DNA from: Candidatus Saccharimonadales bacterium
Lineage (GTDB): Bacteria; Patescibacteriota; Saccharimonadia; UBA4664; DATIHN01
Direction of reading: 5' to 3'
NCBI GenBank assembly: GCA_035480635.1
Contig: DATIHN010000024.1
Location: forward strand, 1-36,408
Length of the DNA stretch: 36,408 bases
The position numbers and the translations under genes are program-made. The notes below the pieces were generated by a model that did not search any database, had not been told where the DNA came from, and saw nothing but the letters and a program-made list of their open reading frames with translations. Of this stretch, positions 1 to 33,317 are shown piece by piece. The number at the start of each line of letters is the position of its first letter. Position 1 is the first letter of the stretch.

Positions 1-1594
1 CGTTATCGACATCCATAGTTGCTCTGACCCACTGGCCGTGGCCGTCAACGAATCCCGATGCAGTAGACATCGCGGCAGTCAAGAAACTGGTTCCGGCCGT
101 TGACCATTGGAAATCAATAATGCCGGTAGTATTAACACGAATGCGCCAACCCCTTTGATTTGCCACCGAAGTGGATTTACTAAATAAGATAACAACAGCA
201 CTAGGCGTCCAATCATTGAGCATTACTTTTACCCTAACGTCAATATCCCCGGTAATAACCAGTGGTGATGCCGAAGGAGTGGCCAAATAATCACCGCTAC
301 TACCAGGTATAACGGCGTTGCGGGCATATGGATCAATAGAGTTAAGCGTGGCTTCAAGCGAGTTCCGCTCGCTCAAATGACCGGAGTCATTGGCCACATT
401 TGTGAGCTCGTTGGGGTCATTGTCCAGCTCGTACATTTCGTATTGGTCGGTTCCGGTGGTGAAAAAGCGGTAGAGTTTACGGTTTTTGGTGGTAACGCCA
501 AGACCGGGGGGGTGAGGGGCAAGGTTATCGGCAAGACTATCGTTCAGCTCGTGCGGGATGGCCCGGGTTGCATAAGTTGCAGGATTGTTAATGATATCAC
601 GCAGGTCGACTCCGTCGAGTGCAATAGATGGTGAGGCCCCAGCAATGGCCGAAATAGTGGCGCTGACGTCTTGGCTGTTGACTGGGACGTCGGCTGATCC
701 GATCGGAATACCCGGCCCCCTAATAATCAACGGTACGTGTATTGACACGTCATAGACTGTATTTTTGGTCGATGGCCCTGTGGTGCGGTGTTCATAGTAG
801 TGGATGCCGTTGTCGCTATGGAATATCACCACCGTATTACTTAGCTGGCTGGATGTTTCCAATTGCTGAAACAGTGCTTCAATGGTTTCGTCAAGCACGA
901 GCAACTCTCGTAGTTGATCTCTAGCTAACCCTTTGGCGAGGTTCAAATCGGCCTTGGTTAATGCTGGCAATGACTGGATCCACGATGGTTTGTCGCTAAC
1001 GTCCTCTTCGTCAACCACCGGCCACTGGATTCGGTGCCATTTGTGGTAATGGTCAGGGCGTGGAGTATATGGGTAATGTGGCACAGTTGGCGCCAAATAC
1101 AAAAACCATGGTTGAGTGGCGGTTTGCATAAAGCTGATCGCTTGCTGCTTTAAATAAGTCATTTGAAATATACCCGGGTGTGTTTGGGATGTCCCATTAT
1201 CCGAAGCATATTGGTAAGGATCCTGGGTGTCGGGCAAAGTCAGGTGCCGCCAAGTGTCCCAGCCAGTTGGTTTTGGATGGAAGGTGCCAGCGCCGTTCAT
1301 ATATTTACCGATCATGGCGGTTGCGTAACCTTTATCGTGTACCCACCGGCCCACAGTGTTGTTGTGGTCAACATTACCCCCATCGATGTCGGCCTGATTA
1401 TTATCCAGCACACCATGCCGCATGCTGTACTGGCCCGTCAAAATACCGGTTCTGGCCGGCTGGCAAAGACCGATATTTAGACGACTAGACGTAAAGTGAT
1501 AGCCCTCTGCTAATAATCGCCGTCGACCATGCCACATGTATTTCAAGGTGTCGTAGCGCATATCATCAGCAAAAATAACTAAGATATTGGTCAT
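1..1594 (-). CDS. Sulfatase (type I, formylglycine) with C-terminal LamG-like region, 3' end outside window
   Basis: Read on the minus strand from ATG at 1594, the frame is open to the window edge (531 codons, no stop). It begins [17 protein letters not shown], giving the metal-binding Asp pair at about residues 10-11. The sulfatase signature follows: [11 protein letters not shown], with Cys44 the residue converted to formylglycine. Further on are HSDNG (second metal site) and a [16 protein letters not shown] stretch typical of the family. After about residue 430 the sequence becomes a beta-rich LamG/concanavalin-like stretch ([15 protein letters not shown]). The family hydrolyses sulfate esters, often on polysaccharides; the substrate here is unknown. 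No Sec or Tat signal is visible. ATG overlaps the TGA of the upstream fibre gene (ATGA), so translation is probably coupled. No formylglycine-generating enzyme lies in the window. Confidence 0.92.
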
Positions 1595-3717
1595 CGTGAA
1601 ACGCCGTACTGGAGATAGAAATAATCAACATGGACTTTTCGGTTAGTGGCGCCAAGCGATTTTACTATGCTAAACGATGGCCCGTAATTACTGAATGCTC
1701 CAGGCAGACTACTGGCACTGGTTGCTACCAAGACATCGTCAATGTAGAAAAGTGCGTTTGTGCTATCGAAGTAAATTCTGAAACGATGATACGACGTATC
1801 AACCGTAGTAGCCGGGCTGGAAGCCAGTGAGTTCCTTACTCCGCCCACCGCTGTCACACAAGTCCAAGTGGTACTGGAGGGACTGTACTTAAAGTAGAAG
1901 CCATTGGTCGGCTCGGTATTGATACCGTTATGAAGACCAAAGTAAGTTGAAAACTGGTTGCTGCCATCATTGAGGGCCTCAACTTTCAAACGCCACTCAT
2001 TAATGAAGATTGGTACACTTGCCATTTGATACTGGCCTAAGTTGATCTGGACATAGCCGGTGGAGGTGGTTCCAGTACCGAAATAGAAGATACCGCCTCC
2101 CGTGTCGGATGGTACCAATAGCGAAGGTGGCAAGATTGTACCGGTTGAGCCCTCGTCAATAGACCAATTTAGTTGACCGATAGAGCTTATCGGCTGAGTA
2201 GTGGGATTGCTCCAAATCACGTGAGTCAAGCCGCTATAAAAGTCATCAACTAGTATGGCGTTGGACCGTAAGTCGGTTAAGGTGCTAACAACATCCGAAG
2301 CCAGCTCATCGAGAGCATCATCAACAAAGGTCGATGATAATGTGCCGCTGTAGGTTATCTCGGAGGCATCACCCTGGGCAGCATAGGTCATCACCAGATC
2401 TCCGCTGGTTGTACTTAAAGTCGAGTTGCTGGTCAGATAAGTTACGCTCAGCTTGCGGTAGCCAGTACCCGTAGTGACCGCTGTAATTGTAAAGACAGCG
2501 AATTTGTTAGGGACGGAATTATTGTAGAGCCTAATAATGCCGCCGGTGAGGCTATCGAGCCAAGTGGACAGGTTGCTGCCGTTGGAGTCAAAGATATCGA
2601 CAAATACTTGGGAAACCGATGAGATAGTGGCGTTGTTGAGCCTAAGTTTACCGCTACCTGGATCAGCATCGGCAGTACTTGAGGTGTCGAGGGTAAATGA
2701 GAAACTGTTACCCCCAAAGTTGCCCTGAGATCCGGTGGCGCCGGTGGCGCCTTGAGAACCAACACTCCCCGTAGAACCGGTGGCGCCAGTTGCGCCTTGG
2801 GAACCAACCCCGCCCGCCGAACCGGTGGCGCCAGTTGCGCCGGCCCCAGTTGCTCCGGCTGGACCAAGCGGCCCAGTGGCACCTGTGGCACCTTGAACGC
2901 TGGCGTTACCGGGGGGGCCGGTGGGGCCGGACGGCGCAAAGGTGACGGCCAGATCACCAGCAGTTGTACCAAGGCTGCCATTGCTTGTTAAATAAGTTAC
3001 AACTAACTTGCGGTAACCGGCTACCACCGTGACGGCACTGACGCTAAAGATGGCAAATTTGGTTGGATCGGAATCGTTAAATAGTTTGATGGTGCCGCCC
3101 AACAAGGCCGCTAGCCAACTGGTTAAGTCCGTACCTCCAGCATCAAGCAGGTCAATGTAGATAGTGGTGACCGATGAGATGGTGGCGTTATCAAACTTTA
3201 GCTTGCCATTGCCAGGGTCGGAATCCGAAGTGTCGCCATTGTCATAGGTATACAAGAAAGTGTCACCAGCCACATGGCCGCGCGGGCCGGTGGCACCGGT
3301 GGGACCCTGGGGACCGGTACTACCATTCGGGCCGGTGGCACCATCCGGACCAGTGGCACCGTCTGGGCCAGTCGCGCCATCCGGGCCTGTAGCACCAAGA
3401 CTGCCGGGGTCGCCTTGAGGTCCAGTAGCTCCAGTAGTACCCCGAGGCCCGGTCGCTCCGGTGGCACCATCCGGGCCGGTGGCCCCCAGGCCAGCCGTAG
3501 CATCTACGTAGGCCTTATTGGCGGCATCCCCGGTGAGGGTTGGGGTTGGGACCATTGGTGAGGCGGTGAAGACTTTGGAACCAGTAATGGTATCACTACC
3601 GGATTTTGAGACGACGTCTTTAAGAGTGCCATCACTATTGAGGCCAACTTCTAGAAAATCATTGAGGATCTTGCCCCAAGTGCCATCATCTCCTCCGGGT
3701 GTAGGTAATCGTGCCAT
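1591..3717 (-). CDS. Collagen-like tail-fibre-type surface protein (708 aa) with lectin-like C-terminus
   Basis: Domain order: residues 1-79 are a conserved N-terminal unit ([14 protein letters not shown], then [13 protein letters not shown]...AANKAYVDA, typical of phage tail-fibre repeats). Gly-X-Y collagen repeats rich in GATGPDG cover 80-148. A beta module covers 151-262, a second collagen run 263-334 and a second copy of the module 336-448. Residues 490-708 form a Ser/Thr-rich LamG/concanavalin-like domain ending VDYFYLQYG. Proteins of this build form trimeric fibres that bind polymers or cells; the ligand is unknown. There is no signal peptide or membrane segment, so the export route is unclear. 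It lies 11 nt after the 1151-aa paralogue and overlaps the sulfatase start, so all three probably form one operon. Confidence 0.88.
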
Positions 3718-3728
3718 TCTACTACCGC

Positions 3729-6700
3729 CTAGATCTCGTAACTAATTGAAAATTGTACTTTTTTTCCACCAGAACTGGTCCAGGCCGCAGTGTTGTAGTC
3801 AGTTCTAACGGTGAATACAGTGGTGGCACTGCCGCAGGTTACAACTCCCGGAGTGGTACTAACCACGCTATTGTCGGTAAATTGAAGCGGCGCAGCCCAT
3901 ATGGCGTTTGCGACTGTACCCGATCCAATCGGCTGCGAAATAGTCGTAGTCGTGGCATTGCTAGTGCCATTAGTCCCCTGCCTAACTAGCGTTGTGCAGG
4001 TATTTCCATCGACTTTGAACCTATAAGCTAAAGTTGTCGGGTTGGCCGACCAACCAACCAAGGTTGGCGTGTAGGCGAACCAAGTAGGGTAACCGGCTGG
4101 GTTAGCAGCGTAAGAAAAGAAGGTGGCCGAGATAGCGGCGTTGGCCAGCACATAAGTATCGCCCCCGTTAATTGTGACCGTTGTGGTATTTGAGGAAAAG
4201 CTTGAGTCGATCACCACAAAATATTTAACTGTCGAGTTAGTCATCTTGATCCTAGTACCCTTGACGAATGTAGTGGTGTAATCAGTAGCCGACGAAATGG
4301 TAAAGGTGTTGGCGTAAGAAGTATTTGTGGCGTATGTCCAGGTGTTGGTATCAGATATCCAATTGTTCCAGACTGTAATTGTCGGGGTATTGATTGTTGG
4401 CGTTGTCAGGATTGGTGTGGCGAGAGTCGGCGAAGTATCAAAAACGAACTGGCCGGTGCCGGTCGCGCCGGTACTAGTCACGCCCTCAATGGTTTGGTGG
4501 CCGGTGAAGGTGTTAGCGGCATCGGTCCTGGCAATAGTGGCAGAAGTAGACGGGAATGTCATGGTGGTGGTATCGGTGCCGGCTAGCGTTATGGAGTTGT
4601 TGGCGGTTAGGGTTTTGCCATCGGCAATTGTCAAAGTGGCGGATGACGACGGTGCAGTTAAGGCTACCTTGTTAACTGATGTGGCTGTGGCTACACCAAT
4701 AGTTGGTGTAACAAGGGTGGGTGAAGTGGCCTTGACTGTACTTCCTGAACCCGTCACTGTGACGGGTTCATAGCTCGTGCAGATCCAGTTGCCGGATCCG
4801 AGAGATACAAACTCGGCCGTGTCCCCAGCCACAGTGGTGATGTTAGCGCCACCAGGCAAAATCAGGCTTGAGGCATTATGGGTTAGGGTTAGAGCTCCAG
4901 TGAATTTGACAATGCGACGGGTGCCAGCCTGAACCGTATCAAAGGCAGTGATAGTGGTGGTGCCAGTAACATTTATGTAATTACCGGTGGCGGCGCCAAT
5001 ATTGGTGGTGGTGCCAGAGGCCACATCGGTGCCCTTGGCTTCGTTGATGAATGATGACAATACCAGCGACGTACCGGTAGCCGCCCCGATTACTGGCGTG
5101 GTAAGTGTGGGTGTATTGGCGAGCACCACCGAGCCAGAACCGACCGAGGCATTGCCAAGCAGCGTCATAGTGCCAGAGGCATCTGGGACCGTCAGAGTGC
5201 GCGTATTGCCGGCTGTAATACCCGACAATTGGAACTGCATTTGCCTAGTAGCGTCGCCATCGTCTTGGACAGTAAAGACATTATCGGCCACGGTAGTTGG
5301 CCCGGTGGCACCAGTTGGACCGGTGGCACCAACTCCCGTGGCGCCGGTGGTGCCAGTGGCCCCAGTCGGGCCAGTCGCACCGGCATCGCCAGTGCGGGAG
5401 TAAAAGATTTTTACAACATCGTTGTTAGCGAAACTGCCGCTTGAATTTACATAACTGACCGTACAGTTATCCCAAGTGCCGTTATCGGTAATGGCACCGG
5501 CCACTTGCAAAACCAAAACATTACCCGGCGCACCGTCTTTGACCATCGTAATGGTGGTGCGGGTAGCCGAAGTCGTGCTATCATCCCAAGTTTGAATCAG
5601 CGTATCGATAGTGTTGCTATCACCGTCCGTCTCACTAATACGCAAAGCGTTAATGGACGAAAGCGTCGTCGAATTGAACTTAATTACACCAGTACCAGGA
5701 TCGCTAGCAGTCGTGTTGGTGGAATAGGTGTATTTGATCCCAGCATCACGACCGGCCGATCCAGCTGTACCGGTGGCGCCTTGAGCACCGGCCGTCCCAG
5801 TGGCGCCGTCGGCTCCGGTGGCACCCTGCGTCCCAGCTGAACCTGTGGCACCCTGCGTACCAGTTGAACCGGTGGCTCCAGCTGGCCCCGTGGCACCTTG
5901 AGCGCCGGTGGCACCTTGGCCTCCGGTCGTACCAGCGGAACCACGATCACCGGAGCGCTCAAACGAGAGAGTGATGGCATCGGCATTAGCAAATGGATTA
6001 GCCGATGATGCACTGATATTTGCAACTGAGATGTTGTTGTAACCGCTGGGTGAAGCCACAGCCGAAACACTAAAGACCAACCACTTGGTGGTGTCTAAGG
6101 TTTTAAATAATCGAATGTATCCTTTGACCGTATTGGTGCTATCGGCAAAGGTGGCCAGCACTGCACTCCAATCAGTGGTGTCACTGCCCAACAAATCGGC
6201 TCGGATGGTTGTAGCGCTACTCTGAGTGGCGTTGTCTAGGCGTAAGTTGCCATTGCCAGGATCGGAATCGGTGGTGGTAGTCGAGAAAGTGTATGGAATA
6301 GTAATTGAACCGCCGACAGCCCCAGTGGCTCCGGTTAAACCAGTCGGTCCGGTTGAGCCAGTTGTACCCTGAGCGCCAGTTGCGCCAGCCGGTCCAGTGG
6401 CTCCGGTGGTACCGGTTGGCCCAGTGGCCCCATCGTTACCAGTGGGCCCAGTGGCGCCGGCTTCGGCTAGTAAGGCCCAGACCGTTTGCCAACTGCCGCC
6501 CACTCCCGGTTCGGTCGAAGCCCCAGAGGTGTGAGCACTGGTACAAATATAACTTGAGCCATTGTTGCTAACTGCATCGAATTGCGCATATGGGGTTGAG
6601 GTTGCCCAATTACCCGTCCAGTTAGTTGACCCACCCGAAACACCTTGCGGTCCGGTTGCGCCGGTGACTCCAAGCGAACCGGTCGCACCAACCGGGCCAG

Positions 6701-7184
6701 TGGCGCCGGTGGTACCAGCACCAGTGGCACCAGTTGTGCCGGCTGAACCAGTTGGCCCAGTGGCGCCAGTCGCGCCAACCCCTCCGGTTGTCCCAGCGGT
6801 GCCGGTAGCTCCAGTTGTGCCTGTGGCTCCAGCCGGACCTGTGGCGCCGGTTAGACCCTGAGTGCCCGCCGAACCGGTGGCACCGGTGGTACCGGCACCA
6901 GTTGCACCGGCCGGTCCAGTGGCGCCAGTCGCGCCAGTCGGGCCTGAGGCTCCGACCCCAGCCGTGGCATCAACGTAGGCCTTGGTGGTAGCATCGCCAG
7001 AAGACGATGGAGTTGGTACCGTCGGCGAGACGGTAAAGGTTTTGGCGCCGGTGATAGTATCAGTGCCAGATTTACTGACGACATCTTTAAGACTGCCGTC
7101 GCTATTATGCCCGACGTTCAGGAAGTCATTAAGAATCGAACCCCATGTGCCGTCATCTCCACCTGGTGTTGGGAGCCGTGCCAT
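3729..7184 (-). CDS. Large collagen-like tail-fibre-type protein (1151 aa) with a CBM5/12-like module
   Basis: The N-terminal 79 residues are nearly the same as in the downstream 708-aa protein. Then come: collagen repeats 80-185; a small carbohydrate-binding-like module 186-237 ([18 protein letters not shown] ... [10 protein letters not shown] ... SWQTVW, the CBM5/12 pattern often seen in tail fibres); collagen 241-290; a beta module 293-410; collagen 411-478; a second beta module 481-598; short collagen 599-629; and a long Thr/Ser-rich tail-fibre-like C-terminus 632-1151. No signal peptide is visible. The start ATG is preceded by GAGG at a long distance (about 13 nt), so initiation may be weak. 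It is the first gene of the fibre/sulfatase operon and has its own promoter candidate upstream. Likely a surface or released adhesin; this is inference. Confidence 0.87.
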
Positions 7185-7287: not shown

Positions 7288-7485
7288 TTAGTGTTTTTTG
7301 GCACCGCCGCCATAGGAGCTCGATCCATACCCGGAAATCTGGTGACGCTGCCCGCCAAATTCAGACAGGGTTTTGACCAAGCCGCTAACCCCGACTACCG
7401 CCAGAGCACCAGCCCCAATGTGAGCTAGAAATTCACGGCGATTCATTGGCTTTGTTAGAAGTTGTTCGATCGGTTTTTTGACCAT
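7288..7485 (-). CDS. Small twin-arginine (Tat) signal protein, 65 aa
   Basis: The sequence has a 13-residue polar lead, then NRREFLAHIGAGALAVVGVSG, i.e. a twin-arginine motif (RREFL) followed by a mildly hydrophobic segment. After it comes a short tail rich in Gly, Ser, Tyr and ending GGGAKKH. The mature part is under 30 residues, far smaller than a normal Tat cargo. The gene sits 55 nt after tatC in the same direction, so it is probably in the tat operon and exported by it. It may be a membrane-retained peptide, a test cargo or a partner of the Tat machine. Translation could start at residue 14 (MNRREF), but neither start has a clear Shine-Dalgarno sequence. Confidence 0.8.
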   Translation of the reverse strand: MVKKPIEQLLTKPMNRREFLAHIGAGALAVVGVSGLVKTLSEFGGQRHQISGYGSSSYGGGAKKH

Positions 7486-7540: not shown

Positions 7541-8488
7541 TCAAGATTCCTGGCTTAAGTCTAAAATGTTATAGCGATTAACCTGCATGGCTGGTGGCGC
7601 CTTGAACTGGGTCGCTGGGCGATCTTTGCGGGCTAACTTAACCCCATCGAGAGTTGTATTCAAAACGTTGGCCGGGTGTTGGCGACGCAGCCGAGGCTTG
7701 GGTTCAGCGATTTCTGGTAAAGCCGTGGGTAGCTGCAGTTCGGAGTTTGGTTCAGCCACCTCACCCACAGCTTCAGCTGGGTATTCGACTCTTCGATTAA
7801 CCATCCAAACCAAAATTATTGATAAGTAGTAGAGAAAAACAATCGGGATAGCCATGACGAATTGGGTAATTGGGTCGTAGGTGAAAGGCAGAATGACGGC
7901 CAAGACGAAGGCCGATACCACCACATGGCGCTGATAGCGCAACAATTTTGAGGGCTTAATCGGCTTTATGCGATTAATGAAGAGCACGATCAAAGGAATT
8001 TGAAACAGCAAAGCAAAAGTCAGCAGGGTGTTTGAAACAAACGACAAATAGGCGTCAGCCGAAATCAGCGGCTGAATGGCGGCACTAGAATACTTTGAAA
8101 AAAAGTGCAGCGACATCGGAATTATGATGAAGAAACCGAACGCCACACCCAAGGCGGCCAATATGGTTGAGAAAATGATGACCTTGAGTAGCAAGAATCG
8201 TTTGAGCACGTTCGGCAGGGCCGGCTCCACAAACCGAATCGAGTTATAAACAATCAAAGGCAGCGCCATCATTAGTCCCAGCAGGCCGGAAACTTTTAGG
8301 ATGAAATTAAAGCTGCCGGCTGGGGAATTGTAGAATAAAGGCGCGCCCAACGGCCGCTGCAGTACCAAAATAATCGGTCCCCGAAAAACGTAGCCCAAAA
8401 TCGAACCAAAACCAACCACCAGCAGAACCCACAGTAGTCTATGCCGCAACTCTTTAATGTGATCGTGAAAAGTCAGCGATGGAGACAC
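7541..8488 (-). CDS. tatC: Sec-independent protein translocase TatC
   Basis: TatC is the multi-span core that recognises twin-arginine signals. The N-terminus has the family pattern FHDHIKELRHRLLWV (normally HLxELRxRL). Six membrane segments can be seen at about 17-37, 68-88, 104-128, 150-172, 188-206 and 210-230. The start is GTG at 8488 with an AGGA about 7 nt upstream. The protein is longer than the usual 240-260 residues: an extra C-terminal tail of about 85 residues, Pro/Glu/Arg-rich, follows the last membrane segment. It lies 27 nt after tatA and before the 65-aa Tat substrate. Confidence 0.93.
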   Translation of the reverse strand: MSPSLTFHDHIKELRHRLLWVLLVVGFGSILGYVFRGPIILVLQRPLGAPLFYNSPAGSFNFILKVSGLLGLMMALPLIVYNSIRFVEPALPNVLKRFLLLKVIIFSTILAALGVAFGFFIIIPMSLHFFSKYSSAAIQPLISADAYLSFVSNTLLTFALLFQIPLIVLFINRIKPIKPSKLLRYQRHVVVSAFVLAVILPFTYDPITQFVMAIPIVFLYYLSIILVWMVNRRVEYPAEAVGEVAEPNSELQLPTALPEIAEPKPRLRRQHPANVLNTTLDGVKLARKDRPATQFKAPPAMQVNRYNILDLSQES

Positions 8489-8515: not shown

Positions 8516-8686
8516 CTAAGCTTTCTTTTCGACAGTGTCGTCTGAACTCTCGCCGGCCACACCCTTCTTGACCTCATTGATCGATTGACCAATGCTGCGG
8601 GCAAGCTCGGGAATTTTTTTGGCCCCAAAGAGCAACAGGATAATCAGCAATACGATTAATAGCTCTTCGAATTTCCCTGCAAACAT
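8516..8686 (-). CDS. tatA: Sec-independent translocase subunit TatA/E, 56 aa
   Basis: Short ORF starting ATG at 8686 with a good GGAGG 5 nt upstream; an overlapping ATG at 8690 is out of frame. The protein has one hydrophobic helix (residues 9-20) followed by the FGAKKIPELARSIGQS amphipathic helix, the hallmark of TatA/TatE, and a charged tail. It would form the pore or membrane-thinning oligomer with TatC. No separate TatB is seen here, as in many minimal Tat systems. It is the first gene of tatA-tatC-small Tat substrate, directly behind a strong promoter. Confidence 0.93.
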   Translation of the reverse strand: MFAGKFEELLIVLLIILLLFGAKKIPELARSIGQSINEVKKGVAGESSDDTVEKKA

Positions 8687-8802: not shown

Positions 8803-9474
8803 ATGAGCAAAGTGGTGAAGCAAAGAATCATAAATATGGTTGGTATCGGCCTATTGGCCGGGTTAATGCTTGTTTCATCCGGTACAGCTTGGGCCACGAC
8901 CTATGGCAACGGAACTTATGGCAATTGTCCCTACAATACTGGGTGTGCCAGTAGCAGCCAAAGTTCGACTCAGGCCCAGCCGGCCCAACCAGAAGCCATT
9001 TTACTCAATGACTTTCAAGATTTTTTCCAACCCGGCGGTAAAACTTTTGACCTGGTCGTAAACCAAGTAGTTTATTTTGACGTCGCTGGCTTAAATGGCA
9101 CCGAGCGCCATAGCATTACCATCAACGAAATCGGGCCGGACTATGTCGTTTTCACCATTGCTTCGACCCCAATTCAGGATCGCTTATACGTTGGGCAAAG
9201 TAAGCAATATGACGTCACTAGCGATAACAAAGACGATATCAAAATAGCCCTCAACTCTATTACCGATGGTAAAGCTAACATGACCTTCTTTGCTCTGAAC
9301 CAATCGGTCTCAAACCCTAGTCAAAATCAAGCCGCGCCGCAAGCTAGCTCATCATTGTGGTGGCTGTGGTTAAGTTTGTCGATTCTGGCAATTGTAGCGG
9401 CACTGGTAGTCTTTTTCATCCTATGGAAGCGTCGCAAAGATCGCCACTCGGATATCACAACCAACTCAAGCTGA
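8803..9474 (+). CDS. Cell-surface protein with Sec signal and C-terminal membrane anchor
   Basis: Residues 1-31 are a Sec signal peptide (hydrophobic core VGIGLLAGLMLVSSG, cleavage likely after TAWA). The mature protein begins TTYGNGTYGNCPYNTGC, a Tyr/Gly motif with two Cys. A Ser/Gln/Ala linker, a beta-rich domain of about 115 residues and a single hydrophobic helix (about 184-207) follow, then WKRRKDR, which stops transfer. It is therefore a type I membrane protein displayed outside. The function is unknown; I associate the TYGNGTYG-type start with Saccharibacteria surface proteins, from memory. The start has TAGG 5-8 nt upstream. Its last 9 nt overlap the convergent methyltransferase gene. 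Confidence 0.85.
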   Translation: MSKVVKQRIINMVGIGLLAGLMLVSSGTAWATTYGNGTYGNCPYNTGCASSSQSSTQAQPAQPEAILLNDFQDFFQPGGKTFDLVVNQVVYFDVAGLNGTERHSITINEIGPDYVVFTIASTPIQDRLYVGQSKQYDVTSDNKDDIKIALNSITDGKANMTFFALNQSVSNPSQNQAAPQASSSLWWLWLSLSILAIVAALVVFFILWKRRKDRHSDITTNSS

Positions 9475-31241: not shown

Positions 31242-31268
31242 AAACGGTAATGGGAGTTAGAACTTTAG
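31242..31268 (-). repeat. Partial copy (half) of the 49-bp junction repeat
   Basis: The first 27 bases of the repeat (sense), including AAAGTTCTAAC and ACCGTTT, are kept; the rest has diverged. The repeat supplies the last codons and TAA stop of the copB gene. Confidence 0.7.
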
Positions 31269-33233
31269 TCGTCGCAGCAGCTGAGCATTGGCTGCTACCA
31301 CAATCGTCGACACAGACATGAGGATAGCTCCAACCGCTGGAGACAATAAGATTCCTTGTTTATACAGCACCCCCGCTGCCAATGGAATTGCCAAGACATT
31401 ATATCCAGTTGCCCAAAAAAGATTTTGAACCATTTTTCGATAAGTTGCTTTCGAAAGCTTAATCACTTTTACGACATCCCTAGGATCACTCTTAATCAAG
31501 ATGATGTCGGCTGACTTGATGGCAACATCAGTGCCAGCTCCAATGGCTATGCCAATATCGGCTTGAGTCAGGGCTGGAGCATCGTTAATGCCATCACCCA
31601 CCATCGCAACTTTTGAACCGCTAGCTTGAAGCTCTTTGACCTTGGTGGCCTTGTCCTCAGGATGCACCTCGGCAAAAAAGTGATCCAGTCCTAGTTCCGT
31701 AGCTACCAATTCCGCCACCGCTTTTGAGTCTCCTGTTATCATAGCCGTTTGGATACCTAACTGTTTTAACGTTTTGATAGTTGCCAAAGATTCTTCCCTG
31801 ATCATGTCAGCTAGTGCTAATGCTGCTATTACTTCCCTGCCTTCGAGCAGATAGACTTCAGTCTTCCCATCTTCTGCGGCTTTCTGAATATACTGCTCAA
31901 TCTCAGGTGGAACTGCTATGTCATTCTCAGTGATAAAGCGACGACTGCCAGCTGTATACTCTTTGCCCTCTATTTTGCCTTTGACCCCCAAGCCAGGTAG
32001 TGCCGAGAAGCCGCTAACTCTTAACAGCTTGATGCCTGACTGTTCGGCTTTCCTTACAATGCCCCTACCAACAATGTGTTCGCTGTTACGCTCAAGGCTG
32101 GCTGTAAGCTGCAACGCCGTGTTGTCATCGATGCCCTTTATAGCCCAAATGTCGGTAACTCCATGCTCGCCCTTGGTCAATGTGCCGGTTTTATCAAACA
32201 AGACAACGTTGAGATTTCGAGCAGACTCGAGAGCCAGTCGTTTTCTGATAAGTAGTCCGTTTGAGGCCGCCAGTGTGGTCGAAATAGCAACCACCAAGGG
32301 CACAGCTAATCCCAGCGCATGAGGGCAGGCGATGACCAGCACAGTCACTGCCCTCTCCACCGCAAAACTACCCCCCATAGCAAATGCCCAAATGATGAAA
32401 GTAATGACTCCCGAAGCTAGTGCCACATAAAACAACCACCCAGCCGCCCGATCGGCCAGCGCCTGGGCATTTGACTTAGAGCGGCTGGCTTCGGCGACTA
32501 GCTTCATGATGCCGGCGAGTGCCGTATTCTCGCCTAGCTTAGTTACTTTGATGGTCAATGAACCGTCTTGGTTAATAGTGCCCGCTATGACTTCATCATG
32601 AACCGATTTGGCAACAGGTTGGGATTCACCGGTAATGGCGGCTTCGTTGACGGATGAACTCCCCTCAGTAATTACGCCATCGGCTGGGATGCTAGAGCCT
32701 GGCCTGACGAGGATTAAATCATTGAGTTTCAACTCAGAGACTAGCACTGTTACTGGCCGGCCATTCTCAAGACGCTCTGCCTTATCGGGCAGAAGTTTGG
32801 CGATAGCATCTAAGGCGCTTTCGGCACTGTGAATCGACTTCATCTCTAACCAATGACCTAGCAGCATAATAGTAATTAGCGAGGCCAGCTCCCAGAAGAA
32901 GCCCTCACCGTTAATAAAGAACAGCGTTGCCAGGCTATATAGATAAGCGGTTAGGATTGCCAGACTAATTAGAGTCATCATGCCTGGCTGCCTGGCCTTC
33001 AGTTCGCTTACACCACCTCGAACAAAGACAAGTCCACCATAAAAGAAAATGATGGTCGCAAAGATCGCCGGTATATAACTAGACCCTGGAAAGGTTGGTG
33101 GTGTGAAATGTAGCCATCGTTGAATAGTGTCCGAGTATGCCATTACCGGCAAAGTCAGGAGCAAGCTGATCCAGAATTTGTCTCGAAACATCGCTACAGA
33201 GTTACCGGCGTGCTTATTGTGCTCCGAGTTCAT
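31257..33233 (-). CDS. copB: CopB-type heavy-metal P1B-ATPase (CPH motif)
   Basis: A 658-aa pump with TGES (actuator), the transport motif IACPHALGLAVPL, phosphorylation site DKTGTLTKG, and MVGDGINDAPAL hinge. CPH marks the P1B-3/CopB group, which exports Cu or Ag. There is no N-terminal HMA domain; only a short His-bearing lead (SEHNKH). The helix pair GYNVLAIPLAAG and MSVSTIVVAANAQ near the C-terminus is typical. ATG at 33233 is preferred to the longer frame, whose extra 16 residues lie in the junction repeat. TGTTATACT lies 6 nt before ATG. Confidence 0.93.
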   Translation of the reverse strand: MNSEHNKHAGNSVAMFRDKFWISLLLTLPVMAYSDTIQRWLHFTPPTFPGSSYIPAIFATIIFFYGGLVFVRGGVSELKARQPGMMTLISLAILTAYLYSLATLFFINGEGFFWELASLITIMLLGHWLEMKSIHSAESALDAIAKLLPDKAERLENGRPVTVLVSELKLNDLILVRPGSSIPADGVITEGSSSVNEAAITGESQPVAKSVHDEVIAGTINQDGSLTIKVTKLGENTALAGIMKLVAEASRSKSNAQALADRAAGWLFYVALASGVITFIIWAFAMGGSFAVERAVTVLVIACPHALGLAVPLVVAISTTLAASNGLLIRKRLALESARNLNVVLFDKTGTLTKGEHGVTDIWAIKGIDDNTALQLTASLERNSEHIVGRGIVRKAEQSGIKLLRVSGFSALPGLGVKGKIEGKEYTAGSRRFITENDIAVPPEIEQYIQKAAEDGKTEVYLLEGREVIAALALADMIREESLATIKTLKQLGIQTAMITGDSKAVAELVATELGLDHFFAEVHPEDKATKVKELQASGSKVAMVGDGINDAPALTQADIGIAIGAGTDVAIKSADIILIKSDPRDVVKVIKLSKATYRKMVQNLFWATGYNVLAIPLAAGVLYKQGILLSPAVGAILMSVSTIVVAANAQLLRRLKF

Positions 33234-33239
33234 GCCGTA

Positions 33240-33248
33240 AGTATAACA
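33240..33248 (-). promoter_or_regulatory. copB: Leaderless extended -10 (TGTTATACT) of copB
   Basis: TGTTATACTTACGGCATG: extended -10, 6 nt, start codon. It directly follows the terminator T-run. Confidence 0.7.
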
Positions 33249-33269
33249 AAAACGGCCTCTCGGCCGTTT
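33248..33269 (-). terminator. Terminator between the 125-aa gene and copB
   Basis: AAACGGCC-GAGA-GGCCGTTT then TT on the minus strand. Confidence 0.75.
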
Positions 33270-33317
33270 AAGCATAAGCATATTTGCTCCAAACGGTGAT
33301 GGAAGTAAGAACTTTAG
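33269..33317 (-). repeat. 49-bp junction repeat, copy 1
   Basis: Begins just after the stop of the 125-aa gene. Contains CACCGTTTGGAGC and the direct repeat ATGCTTATGCTTAA. It differs from copy 3 at about five positions. Confidence 0.85.

Follow-up and report, generated by a model that had tools for sequence, protein, structure and literature searches.

The Tat pathway carries folded proteins. Two described arrangements come closest to the one that we report here. In hitchhiker co-translocation, documented for HybO/HybC and PaoABC (PMC4273604), one partner bears a Tat signal, and the other, signal-less partners cross with it as a folded complex. In the Streptomyces tyrosinase MelC1/MelC2 (PMC8375020), the 'caddie' MelC1 is a small protein with a Tat signal, and its gene immediately precedes that of its signal-less cargo. 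The export route that we propose below for a cluster of fibre genes follows the logic of both systems (PMC4273604; PMC8375020). However, the candidate carrier, a 65-aa protein that we call SRR, would be a mere signal anchor with a short tag, and its cargo a large and open-ended family with a common module as its address, unlike the one enzyme carried by HybO/HybC or PaoABC. MelC1 is a cargo-specific copper chaperone; in SRR no folded domain is visible, and the protein seems to act for many cargoes and to be retained as an anchor.

Two further systems resemble the fibres themselves. Among phage proteins, tail fibres and tailspikes that bear N-terminal attachment segments share the same module and have a neighbour with a terminal YG tag, but the module genes studied here are host-encoded, dispersed and tied to Tat, not to virion genes. 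The streptococcal-type collagen-like adhesins (Scl) also place distal domains on a collagen-repeat stalk; in contrast, our fibres have neither a signal peptide nor an LPXTG anchor, and they reach 91 bits with NF038329, against a cut-off of 325 bits. Regarding the organisms, tatBC has been reported from a saccharibacterium, along with four predicted Tat proteins, two of which have no known function (PMC6031116), and Tat has been mentioned in freshwater CPR bacteria with no role given (PMC9166423). Our literature searches found no paper linking Tat to fibres, and none that assigns a main role to the Tat genes of these organisms.

The tat, fibre and sulfatase gene cluster

The window analyzed is an entire contig (C24) of 36,408 bp, from a genome of 788 kb that is 97% complete. 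A first-pass annotation of its first genes had described an operon of two collagen-type fibres and a sulfatase, without export signals, in a CPR-type organism. Much of this description holds. The spacing of 11 nt and -4 nt (a gap and an overlap) was reproduced from the open reading frames, which all lie on the minus strand; none of the three N-termini shows a hydrophobic or RR signal, and the relatives of the organism are Ca. Saccharibacteria. The three genes are real, but they are a fragment of a longer cluster begun by tatA, tatC and SRR, which lie just upstream and had been overlooked, as had a 33-aa N-terminal module common to the fibres. The features are as follows.

8803..9474, plus strand: exported 'YG protein', divergent from tatA
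8516..8686, minus strand: tatA, 56 aa (profile of relatives' TatA, E=7.5e-22)
7541..8488, minus strand: tatC, 315 aa, GTG start (PF00902, E=1e-47; TIGR00945 above cut-off)
7288..7485, minus strand: SRR, predicted 65-aa Tat signal-anchor protein (NF038009, E=1e-16, below cut-off; TIGR01409)
7426..7443, minus strand: SRR twin-arginine motif NRREFL (R16 and F19 invariant in 16 relatives)
7306..7332, minus strand: SRR C-terminal YG tag GYGSSSYGG (Gly54, Tyr58 and Gly59 invariant or nearly so)
3729..7184, minus strand: fibre 1, 1151 aa, with module, collagen repeats and CBM5/12-like segment (Pfam; phage tail fibre families)
7086..7184, minus strand: N-terminal 33-aa module of fibre 1 (sequence comparison)
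1591..3717, minus strand: fibre 2, 708 aa, with module, collagen repeats and concanavalin-like C-terminus (Pfam)
3619..3717, minus strand: N-terminal 33-aa module of fibre 2 (sequence comparison)
1..1594, minus strand: sulfatase A, S1-type, truncated by the contig end (531 aa on C24, open at base 2; completed at L039 18413-17949, on contig C15)
1..141, no strand: exact overlap with the end of C15 (sequence identity)

The cluster start (8686-7288) lies upstream of fibre 1 on the same strand, with intergenic gaps of 27 nt (tatA-tatC), 55 nt (tatC-SRR) and 103 nt (SRR-fibre 1). At the other end, the sulfatase A gene is cut by the contig edge. Bases 1-141 of C24 are identical to the last 141 bases of C15, and we infer the junction from this 141-bp overlap and not from reads. 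On C15, the cluster continues with the remainder of sulfatase A, fibre 3 (821 aa), a GDSL-like protein, fibre 4 (302 aa), sulfatase B and a glycosyltransferase. Fibre 2 with sulfatase A and fibre 4 with sulfatase B resemble two copies of one pair: identity is 33% between the C-terminal ends of the two fibres and 39% between the sulfatases, and a 4-nt overlap is found within each pair. Promoter and terminator scans gave results near chance level. Both contigs also bear ordinary chromosomal genes. Of note, a copper-type P-type ATPase is encoded at 31257-33281 of the window, in a CPR genome of 0.8 Mb, and the glycosyltransferase after sulfatase B (L039:10644-11819, minus strand) is 61% identical to glycosyltransferases of viral contigs, one of which (L060) also encodes a module protein within a few genes.

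Both fibres encoded in the window carry collagen repeats (PF01391, E=5e-26 and 2e-15), and the fibres match PHROG tail-fibre families. The earlier view of them as surface-type fibres is supported. The CBM5/12-like segment of fibre 1 can be seen, although it stays sub-threshold (CBM_5_12, 22.5 vs 26.2 bits). Lectin-like ends had been proposed for both; fibre 2 retains a weak Laminin_G_3 match (E=0.0013, below cut-off), and the 333-aa end of fibre 1 has no Pfam match. The C-terminus of fibre 4 matches PF22237 (SO2946-like_C), and no viral relatives of the fibre 2 C-terminus were found. The conserved part of the fibres is the 33-aa module, which begins at residue 1 of all four (MxRLPxPGxDxGxWGxILNDFL...H..DG.LK). 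A search of the PDB found no relatives of the module.

Sulfatase A can be placed among the S1 sulfatases with good confidence from its sequence: it matches the PF00884 fold (E=3e-34), its CxPxR motif is CQPAR at 44-48, with Cys44 as had been noted, and 56 related sequences have solved structures. The LamG-like C-terminus once ascribed to it is unproven, as the completed C-terminus gives no Pfam match. Desulfation, also proposed earlier, is doubtful because neither known maturase family, the formylglycine-generating enzyme (FGE, PF03781) nor the anaerobic sulfatase maturase (anSME, TIGR03942), was found in the genome; the enzyme may mature by another route. No viral relatives of the sulfatase were found. 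A conserved fibre-fibre-sulfatase trio was rejected when related genomes were checked, the sulfatase being nearly private to this genome: a relative occurs in one other genome of 117, and that genome lacks the module.

SRR is absent from the annotation. Its sequence (...KPMNRREFLAHIGAGALAVVGVSG...ISGYGSSSYGGGAKKH) comprises a twin-arginine signal, a hydrophobic segment in which no cleavage site is evident, and a tail that contains GYGSSSYG; R16, F19, G32 and the tail are kept in 16 relatives. It scores just above the cut-off of TIGR01409 TAT_signal_seq (17.4 vs 16.7 bits). The model NF038009, 'Tat system-associated protein' (TatB_1), matches 16/16 SRR relatives (best E=7e-20), but these matches are below its cut-off, SRR itself reaching 60.6 bits of the curated 100, and the title of the model gives no role in relation to fibres. 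No TatA_B_E family match was found among the 16 relatives. The tatC gene of the cluster is the sole one in the genome. A rule-based scan that covered essentially all of the genome gave SRR as the only convincing Tat signal; seven further Tat-pattern matches resemble ordinary membrane or soluble proteins. Therefore, the cluster is the only visible load of the Tat system in this organism.

Co-occurrence of the module with TatC and SRR

We examined 117 relatives from the same class, counting TatC above the profile cut-off and SRR as strong matches. The module was present in 37 genomes, TatC in 38 and SRR in 36. All module genomes have TatC: the module is found in 37 of the 38 genomes with TatC and in none without it (Fisher 9e-30), and SRR is found in 35 of the 37 module genomes. 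The sole TatC genome without the module (G060) has SRR as well. No SRR match was found in two genomes with both module and TatC, G076 and G047 (the latter 62% complete), even when their neighbourhoods were searched. Five genera (g3, g14, g37, g42 and g43) include both states, and each time module and TatC are kept or lost together; hence, the correlation is not merely inherited. Across 381 genomes of the phylum, TatC and an SRR match accompany the module in 21/21 cases. These include six genomes from other classes, for which the probability by chance is about 2e-7 or less.

Gene order points in the same direction. The tatC, SRR and module genes are contiguous in CPR classes beyond this one as well (G305, G366, G390, G410 and the Levyibacteriota locus L159), and they lie with tatA inside 5 kb in the cultured actinobacterium Acidithrix ferrooxidans. 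In this last species (L134, genome G460), we also noticed a second SRR-like frame, broken by one TAG. SRR adjoins tatC in most genomes, and 16 of 49 SRR genes precede a module gene on the same strand by no more than 166 nt, when about 0.2 would be expected within 300 nt. Most module genes do not adjoin SRR.

The bodies that follow the module in class relatives are unrelated to each other (pectate-lyase-like, beta-helix, collagen, GDSL, lectin-like or cellulase-like). A genome may hold up to 13 copies, compared with 4 here, and in the relatives these genes are scattered singly amid housekeeping genes. A search of plasmids found no module. A second module type (QRLPxVNxDDGxWGxILNxYLxKEHYD) was observed at L114, L116, L107 and L115, adjoining SRR genes in L107, L114 and L116; SRR of L114 and L116 ends in GFGSGKYGA, possibly a pair co-varying with this module type. 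We also observed signal-less proteins (ANWASLQP or ASWSSLQP) directly after module genes in two genomes (L070 9500-10681; L068 6160-7338), which are possible second-order passengers.

YG tags in phages and in exported proteins

The module is encoded on 24 viral contigs and in two Streptomyces phage genomes, in the latter on a collagen-type or unannotated protein. In these two phages, BRock and LuckySocke (L065, L066), the module proteins lie within tRNA gene arrays, outside the tail gene block and close to a gene for a Ro-like or RNA-binding protein. In several viral contigs, the module gene directly follows a long, tape-measure-like open reading frame. A terminal YG tag, such as GPYGSSLYG or YGSGTYGSGTYG, is present in 12 of 42 viral genes adjoining a module gene and in 1 of 331 others (p=1e-11, an optimistic value given that some contigs are related). 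The pairing occurs in about eight distinct arrangements, the tag standing at the N-terminus in some and at the C-terminus in others. In phages, the module:tag pair probably serves to attach an appendage of the tail to a tail protein next to it, and SRR looks like a Tat signal bearing a YG tag of this kind. In bacterial genome contigs, YG tags were not significantly enriched beside module genes (p=0.4), because most module genes are singletons distant from SRR.

YG peptides are also carried by exported proteins. The YG protein of the window consists of a signal peptide, TTYGNGTYGNCPY, a low-complexity linker and a C-terminal transmembrane segment with a basic tail. Similar proteins, with a signal peptide and then a YG peptide, are encoded at about 11 of 33 Tat loci, and none was convincing at 38 other loci; that of L173 has a peptidoglycan-binding domain (PG_binding_1). 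These proteins near tatC may be further docking posts. In addition, a Sec-exported family of about 190 aa, with PYGxGIYNxNVPYG after the signal peptide, is found near tatC in several genomes (L107 11816-12358, L111 6052-6612, L114 14608-15168 and L116 3510-4145).

Proposed export route and its alternatives

The tatA, tatC and SRR genes are likely the export route of the fibres. Starting from the parts of the cluster, their linkage, the single convincing Tat signal and the phage pairing, all readable in the sequences, we infer a hitchhiker locus for export and display, to which we give a probability of about 0.6. In the cytoplasm, the YG tag of SRR would bind the module at the N-terminus of folded, collagen-type and probably trimeric fibres. 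TatA/TatC would then take SRR through its RR motif and move the loaded complex across the membrane. Because no cleavage site is present, the hydrophobic segment of SRR would stay as a membrane anchor, with the fibres projecting outside. Sec-exported YG proteins may hold more fibres through the same tag, and the fibres in turn may carry the sulfatases and the GDSL-like protein, which are signal-less. On the carrier side of such a hitchhiker pair, SRR has the Tat signal NRREFL and is encoded with its cargo; on the cargo side, the fibres have no signal of their own, the module starts at residue 1 and, in fibres 1 and 2, an in-frame stop lies 1-15 codons upstream of the start. Moreover, a 65-aa protein made of a signal and a short tail gains nothing from Tat unless it is loaded, which argues for folded cargo bound to SRR. 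AlphaFold2 placed the tag at low confidence in two read-through constructs of tag and module, modelled as monomers with artificial linkers and with no tag homologues aligned.

SRR could instead be a translocase component, a substitute for TatB that stays with TatC, recruits module proteins by its tag and passes them on; or the module could contact TatC itself. The name of NF038009 (TatB_1) implies such a role for all 16 SRR relatives that it matches, and the adjacency of SRR and tatC in most genomes would fit it. We nevertheless regard this role as rather unlikely, since SRR has an RR-x-F-L Tat signal followed by a hydrophobic segment, with neither a TatA/B family match nor an evident amphipathic helix, the NF038009 scores stay under the cut-off and, in G115, G001, G065, G116 and G112, SRR is far from tatC and directly upstream of module genes. 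It is more improbable still that SRR is a plain Tat-inserted anchor and that the fibres leave the cell otherwise (by lysis, a holin or an unknown path) and dock outside on YG tags. Docking outside is plausible in itself, as Sec-exported surface proteins at the Tat loci also bear YG peptides; however, Tat is not needed for a short tail, no other exporter was found, and the module never occurs without TatC among the 117 relatives.

Finally, the cluster might be the remnant of a prophage or of a phage-tail-like particle, its products being tail fibres with no host export. The PHROG matches of the fibres, the module and tag shared with phages, and the glycosyltransferase of C15 are all in line with a phage origin. 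Yet the cluster opens with tatA and tatC on contigs with ordinary chromosomal genes, no virion genes adjoin it, the module genes of relatives are scattered singly in up to 13 copies per genome, and a phage origin leaves the correlation with TatC unexplained. On its neighbours and on this scatter we rejected the prophage, which we consider very improbable.

Returning to export by SRR, a broader reading, which we hold tentatively and at slightly less than even odds, is that a phage docking pair has been reused as an export address. One Tat signal-anchor peptide would then serve fibres, depolymerase-like proteins and lectins in CPR bacteria and in at least one cultured actinobacterium, and Tat would be nearly exclusive to this task in many Saccharimonadia. 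The hypothesis can be tested in culture, with Acidithrix ferrooxidans. If true, it would tie an export route of the host to the assembly of phage tails. The module itself would provide a sequence tag for surface proteins overlooked by signal-peptide predictors (4 here and up to 13 per genome elsewhere). The proposed route would also explain the purpose of Tat in many Saccharimonadia, symbiotic bacteria of a little-known phylum: it would display fibres and polysaccharide-active proteins (pectate-lyase-like, GDSL, lectin-like and collagen), pre-folded and signal-less, on the cell surface, where these episymbionts could touch their hosts.
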